IMG/VR virus record: IMGVR_UViG_3300025853_000511
Location: 1-27,994 of that record
Strand: one strand, 5' to 3'
Length of the DNA: 27,994 bases
Source of the DNA: a virus
Positions 63 to 22,905 of this stretch are shown here, piece after piece. The notes under the pieces were generated by a model. It worked only from the letters and a program-made list of their open reading frames with translations. It was not told the DNA's origin and did no database searches. The translations under genes were made by a program, and so were the position numbers. Each line of letters starts with the position of its first letter. Positions within the stretch are counted from its first letter, which is position 1.

Positions 63-1244
63 ATGGACATCAAAACGGTAGACATTGAGAAAATAATTCC
101 TTATGCGAAAAATCCACGCAAAAATGATGCAGCGGTGGGTAAGGTTGCGGCATCTTTGAAAGAATTTGGATTTCGCCAACCAATAGTCGTTGACGCTGAA
201 ATGGTTGTAATTGCTGGACATACGCGCTTGGCGGCGGCACGCAAGCTAAAACTAAATCAAGTGCCAATCCATATTGCAACCGACCTAACGGCAAACCAGA
301 TCAAAGCGTACCGCATAGCTGACAACCGCGTCAGCCAAGAGGCGAAATGGGATGATGACTTGCTGGCGTTAGAATTAGCCGATCTTGATCTGGAAAACTA
401 CGACCTTGGGCTGACCGGCTTTGATGATGACGAACTTGCGGCGTTAATGGCCGAAGCGGTAACAGAGGGGCTAGTTGACGAAGATCAAGTGCCACCGGAG
501 CCAGAAACACCAGTAAGCGTTCTAGGCGATATTTGGCAGCTAGGGCGGCACAGGGTTATGTGCGGGGATAGCACCAGCATCGATGCCGTTGATCAATTAT
601 TGATAGCAGAAAAAATTGATTTAATTTTAACAGACCCGCCATATGGAATTGGCTATGGCGGGTCAATGAAATTAGGCAGCGAAAAATTTGGCTGGAAACA
701 ACATAGCGGTGGATGGGATGAAGAAAGGCCATCAAAAGACTTGTTCGATTTGTTGCATAGTGTTTGTGAAAATTTGATAATATGGGGTGGAAACTATTTT
801 GCTGATATTTTGCCACCATCAATGGGTTGGTTAATTTGGGATAAAGGGCAACGGGGGTTTTCTTTAGCGGATGGTGAAATGGCTTGGACATCTTTCAATA
901 ATGCTTTAAGGATTAAAGAATATTCTAGAGCATTGGCAAACAAAGAAGAAAAACATCACGCAACACAAAAGCCAATTGAAATTCTTGAGTGGTGTCTAGA
1001 ATATGCAGATAGACATTCAAAAAAAACAAATCATATGATTTATGATGCTTTCGGCGGCAGCGGCTCAACTTTGATTGCGTGCGAGAAAACTAACCGGCAA
1101 GCTAGGCTGATGGAACTTGACCCCAAATATGTGGATGTCATTGTAAAACGATGGCAAAACTTCACCGGCTTAATAGCTATTCACGAAAAAACCGGCAAAA
1201 CCTTTAACGAGATGAACAATGGCTCCGACCACGTTTCCGCTTGA
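63..1244 (+). CDS. ParB-domain/DNA N6-adenine methyltransferase fusion
   Basis: The 393-residue protein has an N-terminal ParB/sulfiredoxin-like domain (about residues 1-110, with the GHTRLAAARKL signature) followed by an amino-methyltransferase of the beta arrangement. The catalytic motif IV DPPY is at residues 191-194 and precedes the SAM-binding motif FGGSGST at 330-336. It should methylate adenine (less likely N4-cytosine) in a target that cannot be read from the sequence. Such fusions are common in tailed phages, usually near terminase genes. The stretch encoding the catalytic and target-recognition part (about 580-1040) is clearly AT-richer than the flanks, suggesting a swapped domain. 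The gene overlaps the small terminase start by 26 nt. Protection against host restriction is the likely role, by inference. Confidence 0.9.
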   Translation: MDIKTVDIEKIIPYAKNPRKNDAAVGKVAASLKEFGFRQPIVVDAEMVVIAGHTRLAAARKLKLNQVPIHIATDLTANQIKAYRIADNRVSQEAKWDDDLLALELADLDLENYDLGLTGFDDDELAALMAEAVTEGLVDEDQVPPEPETPVSVLGDIWQLGRHRVMCGDSTSIDAVDQLLIAEKIDLILTDPPYGIGYGGSMKLGSEKFGWKQHSGGWDEERPSKDLFDLLHSVCENLIIWGGNYFADILPPSMGWLIWDKGQRGFSLADGEMAWTSFNNALRIKEYSRALANKEEKHHATQKPIEILEWCLEYADRHSKKTNHMIYDAFGGSGSTLIACEKTNRQARLMELDPKYVDVIVKRWQNFTGLIAIHEKTGKTFNEMNNGSDHVSA

Positions 1245-7784: not shown

Positions 7785-8096
7785 ATGGCTGTTGAAAGTG
7801 CAGATGATCGGGCGATTTTTGTGGGCATTGATGATTTCGGTGTCGCCGCTACCTATACGCCTACCGGCGGGATTGCCACAACGGTCAACGGCATTTTTGA
7901 CAATGACTTTGTTGAGGTAGAAACCGGCGCGGGTGTCGGAATTGCCTTACAACAACCACGCTTTCAGTGCCGCACGGCAGACGTAGCAACAGCGGCAGAA
8001 GGTGACGCGATTGTGATCAACTCAATCAACTACACAGTGCGGATCGTGCAAGACGATGGAACCGGTATGACTGTGTTTGTGTTGGAGTTAGACTGA
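7785..8096 (+). CDS. FII-like head-tail attachment (neck) protein
   Basis: The 103-residue, probably beta-rich protein resembles lambda gpFII in size and pattern. It has GIFDNDFVEVETGAGVGIAL followed by RFQCRTADV, then EGDAIVINSINYTVRIVQDD, matching the FII order of a 'GVFD' segment, 'RTDEV', and 'GDTLTIGEENFWV'. It would form the neck ring that joins the tail to the filled head. It lies between capsid and tail-terminator genes, as in lambda. The stop overlaps the next ATG (TGATG). The assignment comes from remembered pattern similarity and synteny. Confidence 0.7.
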   Translation: MAVESADDRAIFVGIDDFGVAATYTPTGGIATTVNGIFDNDFVEVETGAGVGIALQQPRFQCRTADVATAAEGDAIVINSINYTVRIVQDDGTGMTVFVLELD

Positions 8097-8539
8097 TGGC
8101 TCACGTTCGCAAGCAAATACGCGATGCGGTTGTAACCGCGCTGACTGGATTGACGACAACCGGCTCAAATGTATTCCGGAGCCGCATCTATCCTTTGGAA
8201 AAGACAAAGCTGCCGTGTTTGTGTATATTTACAAGAAGCGAGACCACTGAGTTCGACACAATGACGATCAGTCGGTCAACGCAAAGGAATTTAGATATTG
8301 CTGTTGAAGCATATGTTAGCGCGACAGCTAACTACGACAACACACTGGACACGATTGCAGTGCAAGTCGAGGAAGCAATAGCAAGTGACGTGACGTTAGG
8401 CGGCTTGGCAAAAGATGCACAAGTCACTGCGTTCGAGGCCGATTTTAGTGGTGACGGTGAGCAGCCGGTTGCCGTTGGCCGCTTTACCGTGGCTGTGCAG
8501 TATCGTACAGCTGAAAATGACGTTGAAACCGCCGCATAA
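8096..8539 (+). CDS. Tail terminator protein, gpU-like
   Basis: The 147-residue protein has the layout of lambda-type tail terminators. An N-terminal helix (RKQIRDAVVTALTGL) is followed by RSRIYPLEKTKLPCLCIF, a long strand pair (STQRNLDIAVEAYV), a helix with LDTIAVQVEEAI, and a C-terminal strand GRFTVAVQYRT. It would cap the tail tube and set the end of tail polymerisation. It precedes the tube protein gene, as U precedes V in lambda. The product ends with VETAA, 12 nt before the next start. Confidence 0.75.
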   Translation: MAHVRKQIRDAVVTALTGLTTTGSNVFRSRIYPLEKTKLPCLCIFTRSETTEFDTMTISRSTQRNLDIAVEAYVSATANYDNTLDTIAVQVEEAIASDVTLGGLAKDAQVTAFEADFSGDGEQPVAVGRFTVAVQYRTAENDVETAA

Positions 8540-8551
8540 GGAGTTGATCCA

Positions 8552-8953
8552 ATGGCAACACATACAGGCTCAGAAGGAACGGTGAAGCTAGGCACTGTCG
8601 GCAGCGACACCGCAATCGGCGAAATCCGGTCCTACACCATCACAGAAAATGCAGACACCATCGAGGACACCACGATGGGTGATGCCAGCCGCACTTACAA
8701 AGTCGGCCTGAAAAACTTTTCGGGTTCGGTTGAGTGCTATTTTGACGAAACTGACGCATCGCAAGACAGTATGGTCGCTGGTGCTGAGTTGACTTTGACC
8801 GTCTATCCAGAGGGTTCAGACAGCACAGACGATTATCTGACCGGTGACGTCATCATCACATCTGCCGATGTTACTGCATCAGCTGATGGAATGGTCGAGG
8901 CATCATTCAGCTTCCAAGGCACTGGCGCACTGACACGCGGCGCGGTGGCATAA
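8552..8953 (+). CDS. Major tail tube protein
   Basis: The 133-residue protein begins with the sequence typical of small tube subunits (GSEGTVKLG, then IGEIRSYTITENADTIEDT) and includes DASRTYKVGLKNFSGSVECY and a final SFSFQGTGAL strand. These are hallmarks of lambda V/HK97-like tail tube proteins, here without the extra C-terminal Ig domain of lambda gpV. A good ribosome site (aaggag, 8538-8543) precedes it. It lies directly upstream of the frameshifted chaperone pair. It would build the inner tube of a non-contractile tail, since no sheath gene is present. Confidence 0.88.
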   Translation: MATHTGSEGTVKLGTVGSDTAIGEIRSYTITENADTIEDTTMGDASRTYKVGLKNFSGSVECYFDETDASQDSMVAGAELTLTVYPEGSDSTDDYLTGDVIITSADVTASADGMVEASFSFQGTGALTRGAVA

Positions 8954-8957
8954 CTAG

Positions 8958-9302
8958 ATGTCACTGGGAGCGCAAATAGCTGCGCGGCGCAATACACAAA
9001 GGCGCATCATTGACGTTCCGGAATGGGGCGAGGATGATGTGCCGTTGCGTCTTTATTGTGGGCCGATCACGGCGGGCGATATAGATAGATTGCAGCGCAA
9101 GCACAAAAACTTTCTGAACGATATGACAATTGCCGGAATGGTTGATTTGATTATCCACAAAGCAGAAATGGAAGATGGGGCAAAAGCATTTACGCTAGAA
9201 GATAAGCCTCATCTGATGCGTGAAACGGTTGCTGTAATCTCAGAGGTTGCCGGACAAATGTTCGGCGAAACTGTAGACGTTGAGCAAGCGGAAAAAAACT
9301 GA
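8958..9302 (+). CDS. Tail assembly chaperone, gpG-like (zero frame)
   Basis: The 114-residue protein has a small beta segment (DVPLRLYCGPITAGDIDRL) and a helical remainder ending QAEKN. It occupies the slot of lambda G, between tube and tape-measure genes. The last codons gaa aaa aac run straight into the stop tga and form the slippery heptamer of a -1 frameshift site. Most ribosomes should end here, giving the short form that coats the tape measure during tail assembly. The longer product is listed separately. Confidence 0.87.
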   Translation: MSLGAQIAARRNTQRRIIDVPEWGEDDVPLRLYCGPITAGDIDRLQRKHKNFLNDMTIAGMVDLIIHKAEMEDGAKAFTLEDKPHLMRETVAVISEVAGQMFGETVDVEQAEKN

Positions 9303-9442
9303 AGGCCGATCCGTTACGGCTAAACATTATGGCCTTAGCGGATCGCTTACATAAGACGCAAGCTGAGATTGAAGAATTGACGCTGGAGGAAATCAACGAA
9401 TGGTTCGCTTATTTTAGGATTTTACAAGATGGCACAGAATAA
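8958..9442 (+). CDS. Tail assembly chaperone G-T fusion made by -1 frameshift
   Basis: A -1 slip at A AAA AAC (9293-9299) lets ribosomes bypass the stop at 9300 and read a further 47 codons from 9299 to 9439, ending at taa 9440-9442. The added part (starting LKADPLRLNIMALADRLHKT, ending FRILQDGTE) contains helices and EELTLEEINEWFAYF, a typical T-domain tail. The full product would be 161 residues. The T extension overlaps the tape-measure start by 14 nt, as expected. A stable hairpin lies 7 nt after the heptamer. Without frameshifting there would be a 126-nt gap here, unusual in this compact genome. Confidence 0.87.
9293..9345 (+). promoter_or_regulatory. Programmed -1 ribosomal frameshift element
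   Basis: The element has three parts. The slippery heptamer A AAA AAC (9293-9299) is in the correct phase, then comes a 7-nt spacer (9300-9306), then a hairpin at 9307-9345. The stem pairs CGATCCG (9307-9313) with CGGATCG (9339-9345). It continues inward with U-G, U-A and A-U pairs, one C/U mismatch, and five further pairs (9318-9322 with 9330-9334), leaving a 7-nt loop. The zero-frame stop lies inside the spacer. Confidence 0.9.
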
Positions 9443-10988
9443 ACTCCAGATTGTAATCGCGGCCAAAGATACAACCGGCAAGGTTTTCCGCGGTCTAAAT
9501 AGAGCGTTAGCCGGTGTTGGGCGTTCAATTCTCAGTATGAAAACGGCACTGGTCGGCTTGGCTGGTGCCGCTGGCCTTGGTTTTTTGGTCAAGTCGTCAC
9601 TTGATAGCATTGACGCCCTTGGCAAGACCGCCAGCAAGCTAGGCGTTACCACTGCCGAACTGCAAAAACTCCGATACGCTTCCGAACTGGCTGGCGTTGA
9701 AACGCGCACCGTTGATATGGCTGTGCAACGCTTCACACGGCGTCTGTCTGAGGCCGCTAGAGGCACCGGCGAAGCAAAAGACGCACTGATCGAACTGGGG
9801 CTGAATGCGCGTGAATTGGCGCAACAGCCGCTTGAAAAGCAGATGCTCGAATTGGCAAACGCTTTTGAGGAAGTCGAAAGCAGTGGCGACCGTGTGCGTC
9901 TGGCGTTCAAGCTGTTCGATAGTGAAGGTGTGGCGTTCATAAACACCCTGCAAGGCGGCACAGCGGCTTTGCAAGAGATGTTTGACGAGGTTGATGACCT
10001 TGGCGTTGTACTGTCAGCCAATGCCGTCAAAGGCGTTGAGGACGCGAATGATAGCTTTGTCAAACTGACATCGTTGTTTAGAGGTGTGCGCGATAGCATT
10101 GTCAGTTCGCTTGCACCGGCGTTTCGCACATTTGCTGACAGCATCAGAACAAATGTGGTCGATGCTATTAAAGACGCGGGCGGGATCGAACAGTTTGGCC
10201 GCAACCTCGCGTTGACCATCATTCGCATCTTCAAGCGCGGCGCAGAGGGCATTGAAGCCTTTACAAGTGAAACAATCCGTCAACTCAACCGCGTGATTGC
10301 ATTTTCAAATGACGTGGGCAAAGCCCTTGATATTGATTGGGCAAAAAAATTAGAGCCCTTAAATGAGAGTGATCTAGGTCTGGTTGATGTTTTTGAAGAT
10401 TTGGAAAGAAAAATCAATGCGCTTGGTATCGCTTCTGACAGGGCAAATGACGCCAATAATGATTTCAATAAGGGCAGTGAGGATTTAGAGGAAACGCTCA
10501 AAAAAGTTTTGATGACGGCAAACGATGTCAGAATGAACGGCATCAATGCGCTAGAGGATGCGCTTGTCAGCATCATCGACCGCACATCATCAGTCAAAGA
10601 TGCGTTCAAGGCGATGGCTAGATCAATCATCAGCGATATGATCAGAATGCAGATACAACAAAGCATCACCGGCCCACTGGCGCAAGCTATGGGTTTCCAA
10701 GTTAGTGGGTTGAAGGCGATTGGCGGGCCGGTGCAGTCTGGTTCGGCTTATGTCGTCGGCGAACGCGGGCCAGAAATGTTTGTGCCTAACAGTTCGGGCG
10801 CGATTGTGCCAAATGATCGGATGTCGGCTGGTGGCGTAATTGTTAATCAAACGATCAACGTATCAACTGGCGTTCAGCAAACGGTTCGGGCAGAGGTTAT
10901 GCAGATGATGCCGCAAATTAGCAATGCGGCCAAGAGTGCAGTGCTTGATGCAAGACGGCGTGGCGGTTCATTCGCGGCTGCATTTTAG
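9429..10988 (+). CDS. Tape measure protein
   Basis: The 519-residue protein has a basic N-terminus, a hydrophobic segment (residues about 37-58, MKTALVGLAGAAGLGFLV), long helical coiled-coil-like stretches, and the C-terminal tape-measure signature GERGPEMFVPNSSG. This protein sets tail length and helps eject DNA across the host membrane. At the usual rise per residue a 519-residue ruler implies a fairly short tail, in the region of 70-80 nm. It follows the G/GT genes, as in all lambda-like phages. Codons around 10320-10530 are somewhat AT-richer than the rest. Confidence 0.93.
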   Translation: MAQNKLQIVIAAKDTTGKVFRGLNRALAGVGRSILSMKTALVGLAGAAGLGFLVKSSLDSIDALGKTASKLGVTTAELQKLRYASELAGVETRTVDMAVQRFTRRLSEAARGTGEAKDALIELGLNARELAQQPLEKQMLELANAFEEVESSGDRVRLAFKLFDSEGVAFINTLQGGTAALQEMFDEVDDLGVVLSANAVKGVEDANDSFVKLTSLFRGVRDSIVSSLAPAFRTFADSIRTNVVDAIKDAGGIEQFGRNLALTIIRIFKRGAEGIEAFTSETIRQLNRVIAFSNDVGKALDIDWAKKLEPLNESDLGLVDVFEDLERKINALGIASDRANDANNDFNKGSEDLEETLKKVLMTANDVRMNGINALEDALVSIIDRTSSVKDAFKAMARSIISDMIRMQIQQSITGPLAQAMGFQVSGLKAIGGPVQSGSAYVVGERGPEMFVPNSSGAIVPNDRMSAGGVIVNQTINVSTGVQQTVRAEVMQMMPQISNAAKSAVLDARRRGGSFAAAF

Positions 10989-10997
10989 GGGTGAAAA

Positions 10998-11630
10998 ATG
11001 GCTATAACATATCCACTCACATTGCCGACCGTTGCCGGTATCGCGTCAATCAATCTCCGCGCAGTCAACGCAGTTGCGGTCAGTAGCAGCCCATTCACCT
11101 ATAAACAACAAGTTATCGCGCATCAAGGTCAACGGTGGGAAGCAGAGGTGACTTTGCCGCCTATGACGCGGGCAGATGCTGAAACGTGGATTGCGTTTCT
11201 GGTGTCTCTGCAAGGCGCACGAGGCACGTTCACAATGGGTGATCCGAATGCCGCATCAGCGCGAGGAAGCGCGTCAGTGACTGCCGGAACGCCGGTTGTG
11301 AATGGCGCAGATCAGACCGGTGGGTCATTGACTGTTGACGGCTTGCCAGCCTCTGCGACTGGTTATTTGAAAGCTGGCGATTATATTCAGCTGGGCGGTG
11401 GATCGTCTGCGACCTTGCACAAGGTTTTGCAGGACGTAGACAGCAACGCATCCGGTCAAGCAACCTTGGAGTTGTGGCCGTATATTCGCACTGCACCATC
11501 AGATGATGCGACAATTGTTGTTGGCGATACTGTCGGCGTGTTCCGGCTATCTAGCAATCAGACAGATTGGTCAATCAATAACGCCAGTTTCTACGGCATC
11601 ACCTTTGCGGCGGTTGAGGCGGTGGCGTAA
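10998..11630 (+). CDS. Minor tail protein, distal-tail-like
   Basis: The 210-residue, probably beta-rich protein starts directly after the tape measure with a good ribosome site (agggg). Residues 1-75 contain an SSPFTYKQQVIAHQGQRWEA segment followed by MTRADAETWIAFLVSLQGARG, which resembles the strand-helix pattern of distal tail and lambda M/L-type proteins. The middle is Gly/Ala/Ser-rich with an insertion-like beta region. By position it should form the ring between the tail tube and the tip. I cannot name the family with certainty. Confidence 0.68.
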   Translation: MAITYPLTLPTVAGIASINLRAVNAVAVSSSPFTYKQQVIAHQGQRWEAEVTLPPMTRADAETWIAFLVSLQGARGTFTMGDPNAASARGSASVTAGTPVVNGADQTGGSLTVDGLPASATGYLKAGDYIQLGGGSSATLHKVLQDVDSNASGQATLELWPYIRTAPSDDATIVVGDTVGVFRLSSNQTDWSINNASFYGITFAAVEAVA

Positions 11631-12262
11631 TGGCCAGCCGTGACATCACAACCGGCATTGCCACCGCGCTTGAGGCGTCCGAAATACAACCTTTTTTCGG
11701 CGTTCAACTGTTTTTGGACAGTGAAAATCTATATTTCTGGACTGGTTTGGGCGATCTAACGACTGGCGGCATAACATATGCTGGCACCGGTCAATTCCTT
11801 GCGATCTCAGAGATGGAAGAAACCGCAGAGATTGCGGCCAGAGGCGCGACAATCACACTGTCTGGCATACCTAGCAACCTCATATCGCTTGCGCTCACAG
11901 AACCGTATCAGGGCCGGAAATGCAAAATTATGTTCGGCGCGATTGATGCGAACCGTATTTATCTAAAAGCAGAAGATGGCACATATATTTTGCGCGAAGA
12001 TAGTGGCCGGATCGACATCACAGAGGGCGATGTCACGCCAGTTGTGGAATTGTTCACCGGTTATATTGACCAGATGAATATAGATGAAGGGCCAGACACC
12101 TCAACCATTGTGCTGGCTATAGAAAGCCGACTGATAGACTTAGAGCGTGAACGCATTTTCCGCTATACTGACCAGAACCAAAAAGCGAGATTTCCAAACG
12201 ACAAGGGTTTGGAGTTTGTTGAAGATTTGCAAGACAAGCAATTCAACTGGGGGCGGGGATAA
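11630..12262 (+). CDS. Minor tail protein of the tail tip (baseplate hub type)
   Basis: The 210-residue protein carries EMEETAEIAARGATITLSGI and SLALTEPYQGRKCKIMFG, motifs common in a family of phage tail-tip proteins that occurs between the distal-tail and tip-attachment genes. Strong beta content and the C-terminal sequence DKQFNWGRG fit that family. Its start overlaps the previous stop and its stop overlaps the next start (TAATG), which shows translational coupling across the tip genes. No lambda K-type NlpC/P60 peptidase gene follows, so this tip module is shorter than that of lambda. Confidence 0.72.
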   Translation: MASRDITTGIATALEASEIQPFFGVQLFLDSENLYFWTGLGDLTTGGITYAGTGQFLAISEMEETAEIAARGATITLSGIPSNLISLALTEPYQGRKCKIMFGAIDANRIYLKAEDGTYILREDSGRIDITEGDVTPVVELFTGYIDQMNIDEGPDTSTIVLAIESRLIDLERERIFRYTDQNQKARFPNDKGLEFVEDLQDKQFNWGRG

Positions 12263-14874
12263 TGTTTGCGGCTATATTTCTGTTTTCAGCAATAATCTTT
12301 TACGCTGAACCGGCCCACGCTTTTGGTTTCGGTTTGATCATTGCGGCGGTTGCATCTGCGGCGGCATCCACTGCGTTAGCTTCAGCGGCAACAATCACAA
12401 CAGCAGGGGGGATTTTCGCGTATTTTGGCGAACGGTTTCTAGCATCAGCCGCTTTGCAGTTCGCTCTTAATGCACTATCTCCAAAGCCGCGTGGTGTGCG
12501 TCAATCAGAACCATCACAGTCAGCAATATTGGTCAGCGGTGTTTCGCCGGTAGCAGATCACCAAATCATCTATGGTGAAACAAAGGTGGGCGGCGTGATT
12601 GTCTACAAAGAGGCCACAGACAACAATAAGTTTCTGCATATTGTGGTCGCGTTGGCTGGTCACGAGTGCGAAGAAATTGTGACTGTTTATCTGAATGATG
12701 AGGCATTGACGCTTGACGGCGATGGCGAGGTCACTGCGCCGGATAAATATGTTGGCAAGGTTCGGATCAAAACGCACCTTGGAACAGCCACACAAGCGGC
12801 AGACGCCGATCTGATCAACGAAAGTGACGGCTTGTGGACTGCTGACCATCGACTGCAGGGCATTTGCTACATTTATGCGCGGCTAGAGTTCAACGCTGAC
12901 GCTTTCCCGAATGGTGAACCTAACATCAGCGCGGTTGTTAAAGGCAAAAAGGTCTACAATCCGGCGACCGATACAACCGCTTGGTCGGACAATTCCGCGC
13001 TTATCGTGCGGGATTATTTGGCGGCGGCTTATGGATTGGCATCTGACAGTGACGAGATTGATGACACGCTAATTGCGACAGCCGTGGGCATCTGTGATGA
13101 AAGCGTTGCGCTGGCCGCTGGCGGCACTGAGAAACGATATACAACCAACGGTGCCATAACAACCGGCAACAAGCCATCAGAGACGCTTGATGCGCTTCTG
13201 AGGCCGATGGGTGGGATGCTTTGGTATGCTCAAGGCAAGTGGCGAATGAAGGCGGCAGCATATGTCACGCCAACATTCACACTGACTGAAGATGATTTGC
13301 GCTCGAATGTATCAATCCAAACACGTCACAGCCGCCGCGACAATTTCAATATTGTGCGCGGCAAGTTTCGCGGGTCCGAAAGCAATTGGCAGTTTAGTGA
13401 CTTTCCAGAAATCAGATCAACGACATTCATCGAGGCTGACGGCGGGCAAGAAAGCGCGATGGATTTGGAACTGGGTCTGGTGTCATCATCATCAGCCGCG
13501 CAAAGAATAGCTAAAATAGCTCTTTTCCAGAACCGCGAACAGCTGACACTATCAGCCACGTTCGGATTGCGGGCGTTTCAGTTGCAAGTCGGTGACGTTG
13601 TAAAATTCACAAACACACGCGCTGGATTTGATGAAAAGCCGTTTGAGGTTGTGAACTGGTCGTTTTCGCCTAACGATAACGGCGATATGCTTGTCAATAT
13701 GACACTGCGCGAAACGTCATCAGCGGTCTACGACTGGTCTGCTGAAGAAACCGCGTTTGAGGCCAACAACACGACACTAGCTGATCCGTTTGACGTTCCG
13801 GCCATCGGTCTGGCGGTGGCGTCAGAGGCGCGGATTATCAACGAGCATCTGACCAATGTGATCGTGGCGACAACAACATCAGACGCGCCGGAGCGGATCG
13901 ACAACGTAGAGGTGCAGTTCAAAAAGTCTACAGATACAGATTACATATCCGCTGGGATTGGCGATCTGGGCAAATTTGAAATCATTGACGTTGTAGATGA
14001 CAGTTATGACATTAGGGCCAGGGGCATCAACACGTTTGGCATCAAAGGCGATTTTTCTATCGTATCCAATTTTGGCGTTGAAAACCTAGCCGATCCACCG
14101 GCTGACGTTACCGATTTCAGCTTCAACGTGGGATCGTCTGGCATTTTGCTGGAATGGGAACCTGTAGCCGATCTTGATCTCTCATTCTATCGCATCCGGC
14201 ACAGCTTTTTGGAGAGTGGCGCAACCTTTGCCAACGCAATCACGGCTGTCAACAAGGTGGCGCGGCCAGCCAATAGCGTGATTGTTCCGGCGCAGTCTGG
14301 CACCTATTTGATCAAGGCATATGACAAATCTGGCAACCAGTCGGTCAACGCAACATCAATCGTTGTGCGAGCAGAGGACTTAGACATCTATGGCACAACG
14401 CAACGACAGACAGAGCATAGCACCTTTACTGGCACTAAAACTGGCTGTAGCGTTGTTGATAACCGGTTGCGGATCACCGATCCATCAACTGCCCCAACCA
14501 CAGCAACTTATGATTTCAGTAACTACATCGATACCGGAAGCGTGCGAGTGGCGCGTTGTAGCACTGAAATTGACAACTTGCGAATAAACGATGCGGCGAC
14601 TGTTACGTTTGACACGCTAACCGGAAATTTTGACAGTCTTGGCGGTAACTTTGATGATCTGACCGGCGGCTCATCTTTTGCTGACACTGACGTTATAACA
14701 TTTGTTAGCACGACAGATGATGACCCTGCTGGATCGCCAACGTGGTCTGCGTACAAGCGTTTCAAGTCTGGGGACTTTAGTGGACGCGCTTTTCGGTTTC
14801 GGGTAGAATTGCAATCAACTGGCGATGACGTGACACCGGCTTTGTCGGAGTTGGCCGCCACTGTGAGGTATTAA
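12262..14874 (+). CDS. Tip attachment protein J-like (central tail hub)
   Basis: The 870-residue protein has the J-type central part: QIIYGETKVGGVIVYKEA and the strand-rich hub, a helical SETLDALLRPMGGMLWYAQG segment, and DNFNIVRGKFRGSESNW. A fibronectin type III-like module follows around residues 611-700 (PADVTDF ... GILLEWEP). It would form the tail hub and touch the receptor. The N-terminus is unusual: a signal-peptide-like MFAAIFLFSAIIFYAEPAHA ending in an AHA site, followed by a second hydrophobic Ala/Gly-rich stretch to about residue 70. The C-terminal region carries two tandem DTLTGNFDSL/FDDLTGGS-like short motifs. The product is shorter than lambda J (about 1130). Confidence 0.85.
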   Translation: MFAAIFLFSAIIFYAEPAHAFGFGLIIAAVASAAASTALASAATITTAGGIFAYFGERFLASAALQFALNALSPKPRGVRQSEPSQSAILVSGVSPVADHQIIYGETKVGGVIVYKEATDNNKFLHIVVALAGHECEEIVTVYLNDEALTLDGDGEVTAPDKYVGKVRIKTHLGTATQAADADLINESDGLWTADHRLQGICYIYARLEFNADAFPNGEPNISAVVKGKKVYNPATDTTAWSDNSALIVRDYLAAAYGLASDSDEIDDTLIATAVGICDESVALAAGGTEKRYTTNGAITTGNKPSETLDALLRPMGGMLWYAQGKWRMKAAAYVTPTFTLTEDDLRSNVSIQTRHSRRDNFNIVRGKFRGSESNWQFSDFPEIRSTTFIEADGGQESAMDLELGLVSSSSAAQRIAKIALFQNREQLTLSATFGLRAFQLQVGDVVKFTNTRAGFDEKPFEVVNWSFSPNDNGDMLVNMTLRETSSAVYDWSAEETAFEANNTTLADPFDVPAIGLAVASEARIINEHLTNVIVATTTSDAPERIDNVEVQFKKSTDTDYISAGIGDLGKFEIIDVVDDSYDIRARGINTFGIKGDFSIVSNFGVENLADPPADVTDFSFNVGSSGILLEWEPVADLDLSFYRIRHSFLESGATFANAITAVNKVARPANSVIVPAQSGTYLIKAYDKSGNQSVNATSIVVRAEDLDIYGTTQRQTEHSTFTGTKTGCSVVDNRLRITDPSTAPTTATYDFSNYIDTGSVRVARCSTEIDNLRINDAATVTFDTLTGNFDSLGGNFDDLTGGSSFADTDVITFVSTTDDDPAGSPTWSAYKRFKSGDFSGRAFRFRVELQSTGDDVTPALSELAATVRY

Positions 14875-15768
14875 ATGGCAACGCACGATTATGTAATTTC
14901 GGATCAGACGACACCGGCTTTTCGCGCCGATTTGAACGATGCGCTAGAGGCGATTGCCACGAATAATGGCAGTGCAACCGCGCCATCAACCACATATGCC
15001 GGTATGTGGTGGCACGATACCGCCAACAATTATCTGAAAATGCGCGATGCTAATGATGCGAACTGGATCATTGTGGCCGAAATGGACGTCACAAATAGCC
15101 GCGTCAAGTTGATTTCCAACAGCGTCAAAGCGGCATCTGCGGCTGGCATCGACATTCTTGACAGCACTGGCACCAAAATCATCGACTTACAGATCGCATC
15201 CGAAGCGACAGCAAAAGCCGGAACCAATAACACTGAATTGATGACGCCTCTGCGCGTGGCACAAGCTGCGGCATTGCCAGCTGGTGCGATGATGCCATAC
15301 GCCGGAACGTCTGCGCCGACAGACTGGCTTTTTTGTTATGGTCAGTCCTTGTCAACAAGCACATACGCTGATTTGTTTGCCGCAATTGGCTACACCTATG
15401 GAGGCTCTGGGGCATCATTTAATGTGCCGGATTTGCGTGGCCGTGTCATTGCGGGTCAGGATGATATGGGCGGCACGTCAGCCAATCGCCTCACTAACCA
15501 GCCTGGTGGCTTGAATGGCGACACTTTGGGTGCGACTGGCGGCTCTGAAACGCACACGCTGACAGAGGCGCAATTGCCGTCACACACGCACTCAATGGGT
15601 GAGAACAGCCGCGCACAGCTGGGCAACGATAACGGTGTGGGTTATACCGGTAATTGGGTGTCGGGCGCACATTCAAACATCACATATTCAACACAATCAA
15701 CCGGCGGCGATGAGGCTCACAACAACGTGCAGCCGACAATCGTGTTGAATTACATTATCAAGACTTAG
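14875..15768 (+). CDS. Tail fibre protein with phage tail-collar domain
   Basis: The 297-residue protein begins with a short adhesin-attachment domain (ISDQTTPAFRADLNDALEAI, then AGMWWHDTANNYLKMRD) that recurs in marine phage fibres. A linker and a tail-collar-type domain follow from about residue 135 (PAGAMMPYAGTSAP, FNVPDLRGRVIAG). The C-terminus holds the His-rich THTLTEAQLPSHTHSMGEN, where the histidines may bind metal as in T4 gp12-type collars. It would be a short receptor-binding fibre. It directly follows the J-like gene and precedes the long fibre. Confidence 0.85.
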   Translation: MATHDYVISDQTTPAFRADLNDALEAIATNNGSATAPSTTYAGMWWHDTANNYLKMRDANDANWIIVAEMDVTNSRVKLISNSVKAASAAGIDILDSTGTKIIDLQIASEATAKAGTNNTELMTPLRVAQAAALPAGAMMPYAGTSAPTDWLFCYGQSLSTSTYADLFAAIGYTYGGSGASFNVPDLRGRVIAGQDDMGGTSANRLTNQPGGLNGDTLGATGGSETHTLTEAQLPSHTHSMGENSRAQLGNDNGVGYTGNWVSGAHSNITYSTQSTGGDEAHNNVQPTIVLNYIIKT

Positions 15769-15776
15769 AGGGCAAA

Positions 15777-17813
15777 ATGGCTGACAAAAAAATCTCAGAA
15801 TTAGACGTTATCAATGGCGCAGACACTGCAGCCGATGACTTTTTTGTGGTTGTTGACACCTCTGGCTCAGTCACAAAGAAAATCAGCCGCGCAGAGTTAA
15901 ACAACGCTATCGAGCAAGATGTTCTGGCACAAGTTGACATCACTAGCGCAAATATTGATGGCGGCACGATTGACAACACGCCTATCGGCTCGACCACAGC
16001 ATCAACCGGTAATTTCACGACAGTTGACACCACTGGCAACGTGACGGTTGGCGGCAATCTGACGGTGCAGGGAACAACTGTGACGGTTGACACTGCTACA
16101 GTTCAGACGGTTGATTTGGGGGATAATGACAAAATACGTCTGGGAAATTCGCGGGATTTACAGCTGTATCACGATGGGTCGCAAAGTTTTATAGACCAAG
16201 TTGGTAATGGTAGTCTACTTATTCGCAACACCACACCAGATGCAGATGTATTGATTTACTCTGATGATGGTTCTGGTGGAGAGGCGCTTTATATTCAAGC
16301 CGATGGTTCTAATGGACGAACAAGACTTTACAATTACGGCAGTGAAAAACTATCCACTCGCACCGATGGCATTGTCATCACCGGAACGCTGACTGCGGAT
16401 GGGCTGACTGTTGATGGCAGTGTAAATCCTATTACTGTTGTTAATGGTGCCAGAACTGGCTTACAGCTAACTCAAACTGGCGGCGGCACTGGTTATGTAA
16501 CACTTACTGATGCGAATGAAGCACTTTATATACGCACATCGGATGGCTCAGTAAAAAGCAGACTATCAATCGCAGCCAACGGCGACATCAGCTTCTACGA
16601 CAGCACAGGCACCACGCAAGGTTTCTTCTGGGATGCCTCGACACAGCGGCTTGGGCTGGGTGAAACATCCCCTGACACTGCGCTACACGCGAAGGGAAGC
16701 ATCACTGTTGCCACAATAGAAAGCACCGCCGCAAATAGTGACATTCAAATGAAAGGAAGCGGCACAACAGGTTATACTGCTGTGCGCGCAAACGCTGAAA
16801 CTTTGGCTCTGTTAACAGCAGGGACAAATGCAATAACAATTGACGGCAGTCAAAACGTGGGCATTGGGACTAGCAGTGTTGCAGCAAAGCTAGACATCAG
16901 AGGAATGACTGGCACCACAACAGAGGCTTTCTTAATCGGTTATGGAGCAAATGGAGATAACTACTACACATCTGGGTCTAGTGGTAGCCAAATTTTCCGT
17001 GCAGCAAACACAGAACGTATGCGCATCGACGGCGGCGACTTGCTGGTGGGGACGACTGACACAACTGTCTACGATAACAATGCTGACTCTAGCGTAGACA
17101 ATGGTTTGAACTTGCGTGGTGACGGAAAGTTAGATGCGGCTAGATACAATGGCCCTGTTTTGGGATTAAATCGGACAGGAACTGATGGCACTCTTGCAGA
17201 GTTTCGGAGGTCCGGCACCACTGTGGCTAGCATTGGTACTAAAACTAGCACGCCTTATTTCGTTAGAAGCACTGGCGGTGGTATAGCTCTTGTTGCTGAT
17301 TCTTTGTGTCCAGCGGATTCAACAGGAAGTCCAAGGGATGATTATTATAGTCTTGGGTTGTCAACAAATAGATTTAGTGACCTCTACCTAGCAGGCGGTG
17401 TCTACTTGGGCGGCACTGGTGCGGCTAATTATCTGGATGACTATGAGGAAGGGACTTGGACGCCTAGTGCTACTAGTGCTAATGGTGATGCTGTAGTTAG
17501 CACTAGTATAGAAAGTGCTACCTACACTAAAGTTGGCAATCTTGTAAATGTCCGATGCTATATTACTCTAACTGTGACTTCAGTAGGCACTGGAAACGCT
17601 AGAATAACCGGACTTCCTTTTACAAATAACGGTTATTACACACCGTTCACATCTACGCACGAAACATTTGCGGGTAGCACAGGTCAAGGCTTTGTTAAAC
17701 CTACAAACACACAAATGGAATTTCTAAATGCAAATTCAACAAGCACGCTTCCTATTAGCGGCACTGGTACAAAATACGCAATGATTTCTCTGACATATAA
17801 GACAGATTCTTAA
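15777..17813 (+). CDS. Long tail fibre / receptor-binding protein
   Basis: The 678-residue protein starts with the attachment domain KKISELDVINGADTAADDFF and continues with Gly/Thr-rich repeats of the form GNVTVGGNLTVQG, then RLGLGETSPDTALHAKG and NVGIGTSSVAAKLDIRG, typical of trimeric marine phage fibres. The C-terminus has YLDDYEEGTWTPSATSANG followed by a beta domain that may bind glycans. DNA from about 16120, and especially from 17085 to the end, is AT-richer than the first 340 nt. It also holds four of the seven GANTC sites found in the window. Both point to recombination of the host-binding end. No chaperone or peptidase domain is visible at the C-terminus. Confidence 0.85.
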   Translation: MADKKISELDVINGADTAADDFFVVVDTSGSVTKKISRAELNNAIEQDVLAQVDITSANIDGGTIDNTPIGSTTASTGNFTTVDTTGNVTVGGNLTVQGTTVTVDTATVQTVDLGDNDKIRLGNSRDLQLYHDGSQSFIDQVGNGSLLIRNTTPDADVLIYSDDGSGGEALYIQADGSNGRTRLYNYGSEKLSTRTDGIVITGTLTADGLTVDGSVNPITVVNGARTGLQLTQTGGGTGYVTLTDANEALYIRTSDGSVKSRLSIAANGDISFYDSTGTTQGFFWDASTQRLGLGETSPDTALHAKGSITVATIESTAANSDIQMKGSGTTGYTAVRANAETLALLTAGTNAITIDGSQNVGIGTSSVAAKLDIRGMTGTTTEAFLIGYGANGDNYYTSGSSGSQIFRAANTERMRIDGGDLLVGTTDTTVYDNNADSSVDNGLNLRGDGKLDAARYNGPVLGLNRTGTDGTLAEFRRSGTTVASIGTKTSTPYFVRSTGGGIALVADSLCPADSTGSPRDDYYSLGLSTNRFSDLYLAGGVYLGGTGAANYLDDYEEGTWTPSATSANGDAVVSTSIESATYTKVGNLVNVRCYITLTVTSVGTGNARITGLPFTNNGYYTPFTSTHETFAGSTGQGFVKPTNTQMEFLNANSTSTLPISGTGTKYAMISLTYKTDS

Positions 17814-17863
17814 CTACCTCATTCGGATGATTGAGGCAGACAGTCCAGCCAAAGGAGATAAAA

Positions 17864-18115
17864 ATGGCACTAACAGAAGAAACAATCCAAGACAAAATCG
17901 AGGTGGTGGGCGACTACAAGCACGTGCAAGTTCGCACCGCAACAGTCATCAAGCGTGATGGCGTTGAGATTAGCCGTAGCTATCACAGGCACGTTGTAGC
18001 ACCTGACGATGACATCACTGGCGAAAGCGCAGAGGTGCAAGCTATCTGTGCGGCGGTACACACACAAGCCGTGAAGGATGCTTATGCGGCACATCTGGCC
18101 GAACAGGAGGTTTAA
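17864..18115 (+). CDS. Hypothetical protein downstream of tail fibre
   Basis: The 83-residue product (starting MALTEETIQDKIEVVGDYKH) has a predicted beta hairpin with VQVRTATVIKRDGVEISRSY and a helical C-terminus. The ATG at 17864 follows a clear aaaggag ribosome site (17851-17857) and is preferred to an upstream TTG at 17831. Proteins of this type recur after fibre genes in marine phages; I know no function. A virion-associated or fibre-related role is possible by position only. Confidence 0.75.
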   Translation: MALTEETIQDKIEVVGDYKHVQVRTATVIKRDGVEISRSYHRHVVAPDDDITGESAEVQAICAAVHTQAVKDAYAAHLAEQEV

Positions 18116-18118
18116 CCT

Positions 18119-18475
18119 ATGGCTAACACATATAATTGGGCGTTTAACTTTGACGTCTGCAACCAACCACAAAACGGTCACTTGGACCTAATCACCACGA
18201 TTCACTGGCGCATCAGTGCTACCAGCAGTAGCGTTGTTGACGCTGAAGGCAATCCACTGTCTGTCTCAGCATACGGCACAGCGGCTGTAGCAACGCCAGA
18301 GGAAGGCTGTCCTGATTACATCGCCTTTGACGACATCACACCTGATTGGGCGAAGGAAAAGACACTGGCATCGCTCGACAAGACTGAGGCTGAATTGCAG
18401 GCTGTTCTTGATGAGCGGATGGCTGAGATGGCATCACCGCCAATGCGTCAGGCAGTACCAGCAAGCTGGGCGTAA
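18119..18475 (+). CDS. Hypothetical protein, possibly fibre-associated
   Basis: The 118-residue protein contains an N-terminal NWAFNFDV segment, a TTIHWRISATSSSVV strand region and a C-terminal helix (LDKTEAELQAVLDERMAEM). Its strong ribosome site (aggagg, 18106-18111) sits at the end of the preceding gene, so the two are co-translated. I recognise the pattern from small genes near phage fibres but not a defined function. Nothing indicates an enzyme. Confidence 0.72.
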   Translation: MANTYNWAFNFDVCNQPQNGHLDLITTIHWRISATSSSVVDAEGNPLSVSAYGTAAVATPEEGCPDYIAFDDITPDWAKEKTLASLDKTEAELQAVLDERMAEMASPPMRQAVPASWA

Positions 18476-21473: not shown

Positions 21474-22066
21474 TGTAATTCTTCCTTCCTTTTGGAAAAC
21501 ATTTTTAGGTGTTCATCACTGATTTTCAATCCTTTGGATTGATACAGCTTTGTGTAAAGTGCGTTGACATCACGCACTGATTTACAGCCGTCAAGCTGCA
21601 AAACTAAATTGTCTGTGGAGAGGGGCGCGGGGGCCGCATCGGAGGAATGCGAACCACCCGCACCGGCGCGGCGTGGAAGGGAGGGAACCACGCCTCGACC
21701 GCTTGCCATATTGCCATCATCGTCACTGGCGTTCAACCCGAACATTGTCATCAGTGATGCCCGCCGGTAGTAGGTAAGGCAGCTGATAAACGATTGTGGC
21801 GTGTCTTTTTCGGGCTTTAGTTCAATGTCACTGCTGAAACTTGCGCCATTTCCAAGATGGAAAACTGTTGTGATAAGCGAATTGCCGTGCAGATGTTGCT
21901 CGAAAGCCAGATCGTATTCCTGCAACGTGCTTAACGCCGCCAGAACGTCACCCAAAGTGGTGTATTCGCTTTTGAACATCGGATTTTTGCCAGACTTGCC
22001 CACCGTTGTCGCCGACCTAAACGCCGACAAAGCCGCGAACAATGCGCCATCTTTTACTGTTTCCAT
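21470..22066 (-). CDS. ERF-like single-strand annealing recombinase
   Basis: The 198-residue product begins METVKDGALFAALSAF and has the ERF-like core: SGKNPMFKSEYTTLGDVLAA (a short form of the 'NP.FKS.Y..L..V' signature), then LITTVFHLGNGASFSSDIEL and FISCLTYYRRASLMTMFGL. It would bind ssDNA and anneal complementary strands. The ATG at 22066 has an aaaggg-type ribosome site and the expected N-terminus; the frame upstream to 22126 is not used. It lies between the exonuclease and SSB genes, the standard phage recombination set. A Ser/Ala/Pro-rich linker (about residues 135-155) precedes a short C-terminal helical part. Confidence 0.85.
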   Translation of the reverse strand: METVKDGALFAALSAFRSATTVGKSGKNPMFKSEYTTLGDVLAALSTLQEYDLAFEQHLHGNSLITTVFHLGNGASFSSDIELKPEKDTPQSFISCLTYYRRASLMTMFGLNASDDDGNMASGRGVVPSLPRRAGAGGSHSSDAAPAPLSTDNLVLQLDGCKSVRDVNALYTKLYQSKGLKISDEHLKMFSKRKEELQ

Positions 22067-22905
22067 AGCTGTTTTGCCCTTTCTACAAACTCTGGTTCCA
22101 TACGCCACTGAAAGGCGTGTTGCCAATCGGGATCAGTGATTGATGCCAGTGTCTTGGCGTCATTGCTGACCCTCAATAGATTTTGTCTGATTAGTGCCTT
22201 TTGCCGCATTTCCTCTAGCGCGTGAGCCAGACTGTCGGCCTTCAATTCGTCACAATTGAATGGCGTGAACATCTGACAGTCGTGTTCTGCTATGTAGCAG
22301 ATCGAAGGTGTCACACCCAAAGCGGCTTGATATATGGCTGACTGACAAAGGTGATTAAACTCCGGCTTTTTCGGCAGTGTTGCTTTCGACCAACCCTGTT
22401 CACCGTTTTTCAGCACTTTGGTTTTGCGCGGTGCTTTGGTTTTCATTTCACAGAACATCGTTTTCGGCTGTAGCAGGTCCACATATCCGATGATCGGCAC
22501 GTCAACGCCATCAAGCCACAACTCAATACGTTCTTCCTCAACAGCACCAGTAAAATTGGCATCGACTAAAGCTGTGACCGCGTTTCCGACCATTCCGGCA
22601 ATGCAAGTCCGAAATTTGTCGCGCAACACTTGATCTTGATTTGCATCGTGAAAATCAAAGTCAATTTTCGCTTGCTCAATAGTGTCACCGATGTCTTGAC
22701 CGTGGCAAATTATAGCTTGAACACTATTATGGACGACTGTGCCGATAGCGGCGCGTTCCCCCACACCTATTTTGCGGCGTTGGTCTTTGTCGAGTGCTAT
22801 GTATTTGAAAACCCACATTGCTGTGGTGTTCAAAAGCTGACTTGCTGACAGATGTGTCAGATCAGCGGCTGACCACTCTGGGCCGATTTGTCTTGTCAAA
22901 GTCAT
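22054..22905 (-). CDS. RecB/Cas4-like PD-(D/E)XK exonuclease
   Basis: The 283-residue protein has the Cas4/RecB-like layout. A Ser-rich start (LTHLSASQLLN) leads to IGTVVHNSVQ with H59, then IIGYVDLLQPKTMFCEMKTK with D143, E153 and K155, and a QSAIYQ motif of the Qxxx(Y) type. It should resect double-stranded ends to feed the ERF-like annealing protein made from the next gene (13-nt overlap). No Cys cluster for an Fe-S centre is visible, unlike true Cas4. It is the first gene of the leftward operon, reading away from the shared promoter region at 22906-22982. Confidence 0.88.
   Translation of the reverse strand: MTLTRQIGPEWSAADLTHLSASQLLNTTAMWVFKYIALDKDQRRKIGVGERAAIGTVVHNSVQAIICHGQDIGDTIEQAKIDFDFHDANQDQVLRDKFRTCIAGMVGNAVTALVDANFTGAVEEERIELWLDGVDVPIIGYVDLLQPKTMFCEMKTKAPRKTKVLKNGEQGWSKATLPKKPEFNHLCQSAIYQAALGVTPSICYIAEHDCQMFTPFNCDELKADSLAHALEEMRQKALIRQNLLRVSNDAKTLASITDPDWQHAFQWRMEPEFVERAKQLWKQ

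Follow-up and report, generated by a model that had tools for sequence, protein, structure and literature searches.

The window and its tail-fibre locus

The stretch analysed here (the window) is a virus record of 27,994 bases with lambda-type terminase, portal, capsid, tape measure, J, and collar genes. It belongs to a marine siphophage that is collinear with the CRP-822-type roseophages: a row of 15 window genes between 1219 and 17813, with one gap, has its matches in the same order in CRP-821, and the terminase-portal-capsid-tail block is collinear between the window and the isolates CRP-821, CRP-811, and CRP-406, all members of that group (PMC12629253). A megablast comparison of the window with named phages gave no match. 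When the terminase was searched in bacterial genomes, only two matches were obtained, 35% identical, and assignment of a host or prophage by this route was dropped. For the methyltransferase gene (Table 1), matches to solved structures were weak and did not indicate a target word. A minus-strand gene at 22054-22905 weakly matched the CRISPR/Cas-associated phage family phrog_1706, and the window proteins scanned against PHROGs gave no match to a reverse transcriptase or a diversity-generating element.

The tail-fibre gene falls into two parts. Among relatives whose fibre ends differ from that of the window, the nearest is L196. It shares 95% identity with the window over 7845-12252 and 93% over 15001-16078, where homology ends inside the fibre gene; beyond this point only the patches 16376-16414 and 16578-16660 are shared. 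Composition and codon usage shift at the same codon, codon 101 (16077). GC3 is 0.52 in codons 1-100 and 0.28-0.46 thereafter, and the codon-usage z score passes from +0.8 to values between -1.1 and -3.7. An earlier interpretation of this DNA made without database searches (the sequence-only reading) had described 17085-18203 as AT-richer, with codons differing from those of the structural genes, and had taken it for the acquired end. The shift is real for the fibre but not for the genes at 17864-18475, whose GC3 is 0.52, and the alignment with relatives that this reading had called for placed the boundary at 16078, 1 kb upstream of 17085. Two findings had been named as arguments against an import. 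There was no vertical descent over the whole fibre gene, and an identical set of sites in close relatives was seen in the 99.7% identical twin, L208, which has the same fibre, but not in other relatives, which have different fibre ends with GANTC sites of their own. Given the break with L196 and the fibre shared with L208, the swap took place once the L196 lineage had separated, in either or both lineages, but before the window and its twin diverged.

Beyond 16078 the fibre gene appears to be a patchwork of segments joined at short, nearly identical stretches of DNA. These patches (Table 1) are 75-100% identical at the DNA level in dozens of otherwise different fibres, of GANTC avoiders and non-avoiders alike, and they look like recombination hinges, a role suggested by their sequence. 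With other lineages the distal fibre shares hinges of 40-90 bp, at up to 100% identity, and the C terminus, which is 74% identical in DNA to its nearest relative, L087; no long near-identical segment was found. The sharp break against a 93% identical relative, the foreign codons from that point on, and the shared hinges together support the reading of the distal fibre as a swapped module. A nucleotide-level donor of its four GANTC sites was not found: degenerate DNA scans at 17085 and 17298-17316 hit the twin alone, and in L087, whose GANTC density is near-ordinary (about 0.75), and in L333 the bases aligned with 17805 and 17085 do not form GANTC.

The fifth site of the cluster, 18199, lies in the next-but-one gene relative to the fibre's sites, the DUF7936 gene. 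Here a module is shared at the DNA level with another lineage: a 297-bp run, 18136-18432, takes in the site and is identical in L350, which carries the same site, lacks a detectable homologue for most window genes, and has few other genes in common with the window. L350 comes from sample 3300025815, and the same sample number applies to L193, which matches the window at 99%. More distant homologues read TATTC at this position (L352, L353, L366, L400, and L093), and L119 has a GANTC site. The DUF7936 gene appears to be a separate recent exchange and offers the clearest evidence of recent exchange at the locus; we infer its direction from the fact that L350 bears GANTC (15 sites versus 29.7 expected, not a strong depletion). 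The single import envisaged by the sequence-only reading thus gives way to several pieces, with 18199 in a different one from the fibre sites, and the donor search that it proposed gave a putative source, L350, for the gene around 18199 and none for the four fibre sites.

Table 1. Features of the window discussed in the text (window positions)
Feature	Position	Strand	Remarks
Methyltransferase gene	63-1244		ParB-like nuclease domain fused to N6/N4 DNA methyltransferase (PHROGs); just upstream of terminase genes
N-terminal anchor of tail-fibre protein, conserved (codons 1-100)	15777..16077	+	Native codon usage; 93% DNA identity to L196 as far as 16078
Distal tail fibre, putatively swapped	16078..17813	+	Foreign codon usage; L196 homology break; 4 GANTC
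Short candidate hinge	16376..16417		Identical DNA (100%) in fibres that otherwise differ: L350 and L361 over 42 bp, L196 over 39 bp
Candidate hinge, about 88 bp, ...GDISFYDSTGTTQGFFWDASTQRLGLG	16573..16660		Often 94-100% DNA identity; fibres of GANTC-avoiding and non-avoiding phages
GANTC site (GACTC)	17085..17089		In fibre
GANTC site (GATTC)	17298..17302		In fibre
GANTC site (GATTC)	17316..17320		In fibre
Candidate hinge, 90 bp, ...GGVYLGGTGAANYLDDYEEGTWTPS	17379..17468		Typically 75-95% DNA identity; 131 loci matched
GANTC site (GATTC)	17805..17809		Near fibre stop codon; aligned L087 sequence AATTC
Small gene	17864..18115	+	phrog_6228; 81-96% amino-acid identity in several other phages; no GANTC
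DUF7936 gene, 118 aa	18119..18475	+	Fifth GANTC site (18199); 18136-18432 identical to L350

GANTC in the window and among its relatives

The window contains seven GANTC sites (1705, 4634, 17085, 17298, 17316, 17805, and 18199), against 94 ± 10 expected from dinucleotide shuffles. As the sequence-only reading had stated, five of the seven fall within 17085-18203 and four within 17085-17813, the 729 bp that close the fibre ORF (15777-17813). In synonymous-codon shuffles, which keep the protein and the codon counts fixed, 5.8 sites were expected in the distal fibre (codons 101-678), where 4 are found, and 57 in the remaining coding DNA, where 4 were likewise counted, one of them twice because two ORFs overlap there. 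Across models, the expectation for the distal fibre was about 4.3-5.8. The fibre end is therefore not enriched in GANTC but merely undepleted, and the window outside it, with 3 sites versus about 90 expected, is that of a GANTC-avoiding phage.

The pattern is recurrent rather than a one-off. In 27 deduplicated GANTC-avoiding loci, defined by a core GANTC ratio below 0.05 and chosen with the window and its twin left out, the distal fibres hold 37 sites versus 94 expected, and the rest 10 versus 1050; these loci are contig pieces, deduplicated by shared 24-mers, and retain some kinship. When restricted to the 22 loci whose cores are longest, the bootstrap 95% confidence interval of the distal ratio was 0.23-0.51. 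Within the phage family, whose members were picked by J protein or fibre anchor, blind to the distal end and excluding the window and its twin, observed over expected counts were 25/764 in the upstream core, 30/76 in the distal fibre, and 12/207 downstream. Other genes of the family's avoiders gave ratios of 0-0.12 (J, 6/289; portal, 2/202; collar, 3/41). Foreign codon usage recurs as well, with a mean z of -3.8 in the distal fibres of 33 avoiders versus -0.7 in their other ORFs (P = 1.5e-7); between GANTC density and foreign codon usage there was a weak trend (rho -0.32, P = 0.07). In five distinct genomes of CRP isolates, no GANTC was found in the fibre versus about 23 expected. As a side observation, CRP-811 (L424) has just two GANTC sites, at 13597 and 13641; they are separated by 44 bp and share a small gene of the lysis region (13487-13732), possibly another imported piece.

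Other avoided words and the origin of the sites

GANTC is one of several words that the window avoids. CATG is absent (107 expected), CCNGG occurs 3 times versus 73 expected, and strong depletion extends to CGWCG, RGCGCY, and several six-base palindromes; so many depleted words suggest many restriction pressures. The window's own distal fibre, with no CATG versus about 1 (synonymous shuffle) or 9.7 (dinucleotide model) expected, is uninformative on this point, and the CATG test was made on the aggregate over relatives. Distal fibres held no CATG in 14 CATG-avoiding loci (28-41 expected), no GATC in GATC avoiders (74-137 expected), no GTAC in GTAC avoiders (37-48 expected), and 7 CCNGG in CCNGG avoiders (27-43 expected); the ranges combine synonymous shuffles with scaling by non-avoiding loci, models that differ up to fourfold for CATG. 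In 11 loci that avoid both GANTC and CATG, the window included, distal fibres have 15 GANTC versus 33-42 expected and no CATG versus 22 expected by synonymous shuffle. Separately, GATC stands at about 1.4-1.5 times its expectation in GANTC avoiders (the window core, L423-L428, and others) but not in their distal fibres.

These counts bear on what kind of donor is conceivable. Distal fibres remain entirely free of CATG, GATC, and GTAC in phages that avoid these words, which excludes any general loosening of word selection in this part of the gene. The counts also speak against generally naive donors, which would have returned these words along with GANTC. Of the import proposed by the sequence-only reading, the swapped module stands, on the break, the codons, the hinges, and the recurrent site counts, but the donor simply free of word selection is not supported. 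Nor can avoided words date the swap as had been suggested: four counts give a very wide interval, the other avoided words do not return, and the five sites yield neither a date nor evidence of a host switch.

Our favoured reading, with a probability of roughly 0.7, is that recombination supplied both the distal fibre (16078-17813) and the DUF7936 gene (18119-18475) as modules, which brought GANTC from undepleted phages and have not yet been purged of it. Such fibre modules would circulate in a pool common to marine phages and be exchanged, probably, via the short hinges, which unrelated phages have in nearly identical DNA form. Elsewhere in the genome GANTC would have been purged, probably through hosts or host populations, the putative agent being a restriction activity like that of HinfI or a consequence of CcrM methylation. 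Modules arriving from phages undepleted in GANTC would carry sites that slow purging has yet to remove, and the four fibre sites would have entered with theirs.

Since CATG-type words never return, either the donors belong to the same hosts, with their CATG-type restriction, but are free of the GANTC constraint, or selection on GANTC is soft enough for its sites to linger, whereas CATG-type sites would stop a swap immediately. The first option is a narrower form of the favoured reading, in which donors avoid CATG, GATC, and GTAC and are insensitive to GANTC, for example through a putative protecting methyltransferase. We regard it as a reasonable proposal at somewhat below even odds: it accounts for the return of GANTC without the other three words, and CATG-free, GANTC-bearing phages exist in the pool (L221, L224, and L317), but L350, the best nucleotide match to any transferred piece, is not CATG-free (14 versus 54 expected), nor is L087 (46 versus 120 expected), and site counts do not separate such donors from soft selection on GANTC. 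L317 is CATG-free and GATC-poor with normal GANTC (38 versus 35 expected), as would be expected of a donor from the same host.

The same contrast hints at two word classes in marine phages, "strict" (CATG, GATC, and GTAC) and "leaky" (GANTC and, less so, CCNGG), a division that we hold tentatively, at close to an even chance. If it is true, strict words would be absent even from swapped ends, so that a swap survives only when already clean, and leaky words would persist in swapped pieces; the contrast would then tell which phages draw on a common fibre pool and would distinguish lethal restriction from milder selection.

It is unlikely that local relaxation or fast protein evolution let GANTC sites arise and persist in the fibre without import. 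Such an origin is consistent with the lack of a donor for the four fibre sites, with closest homologues that have no sites at the aligned positions, and with distal counts of avoiders that fit one common rate of 0.38, which is the average (dispersion P = 0.12). However, the boundary is sharp within one gene and coincides with the homology and codon breaks, the neighbouring genes (J, collar, and those downstream) are clean, the CRP isolates purge their fibres completely, and the full avoidance of CATG, GATC, and GTAC in distal fibres means that word selection as such is not relaxed. Chance clustering of leftover sites in one genome is highly improbable, for although there are only seven sites and the interval was chosen after looking, five of seven randomly placed sites would fall within 1119 bp with P = 2.7e-4, and the pattern is repeated in independent loci without the window. 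A positional effect, such as late entry of this DNA end, was rejected, given the clean J, collar, and downstream genes and a boundary inside a gene.

Relation to known systems

The CRP-822-type roseophages (PMC12629253; CRP-821, -822, -823, -831, -811, and -406) resemble the window in their collinear morphogenesis genes, in a TerL 57-62% identical to the window's over about 600 aa, and in the near absence of GANTC (0-2 sites versus about 90-110 expected). Unlike the window, these isolates have a fibre without GANTC and a genome in which CATG is not absent, and their replication and lysis genes are mostly different. GANTC depletion is also common to the window and to pelagiphages, about half of whose genomes are clearly depleted, following phage phylogeny, according to the accessible text of Seong et al. 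(2022, PMC9516812); that text treats whole genomes and describes no fibre-specific exception.

The accessible literature on GANTC depletion offers no settled explanation of why alphaproteobacterial phages avoid the word, and the pattern described here gives a handle on this question. Fibre swapping is well known in phages. A counter-selected word provides an independent marker of such swaps in metagenomic phages, for which the donor is not needed; the contrast between GANTC and CATG, GATC, and GTAC limits that marker, which is not a general clock for swaps. In the tail-fibre module exchange of tailed phages, a conserved N-terminal anchor is combined with a variable, receptor-binding distal part. 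The window resembles this system in that homology breaks off once the anchor ends, close relatives carry unrelated distal ends, and short conserved hinges are present. It differs in that the swap is marked by the return of one counter-selected word while the others stay away.
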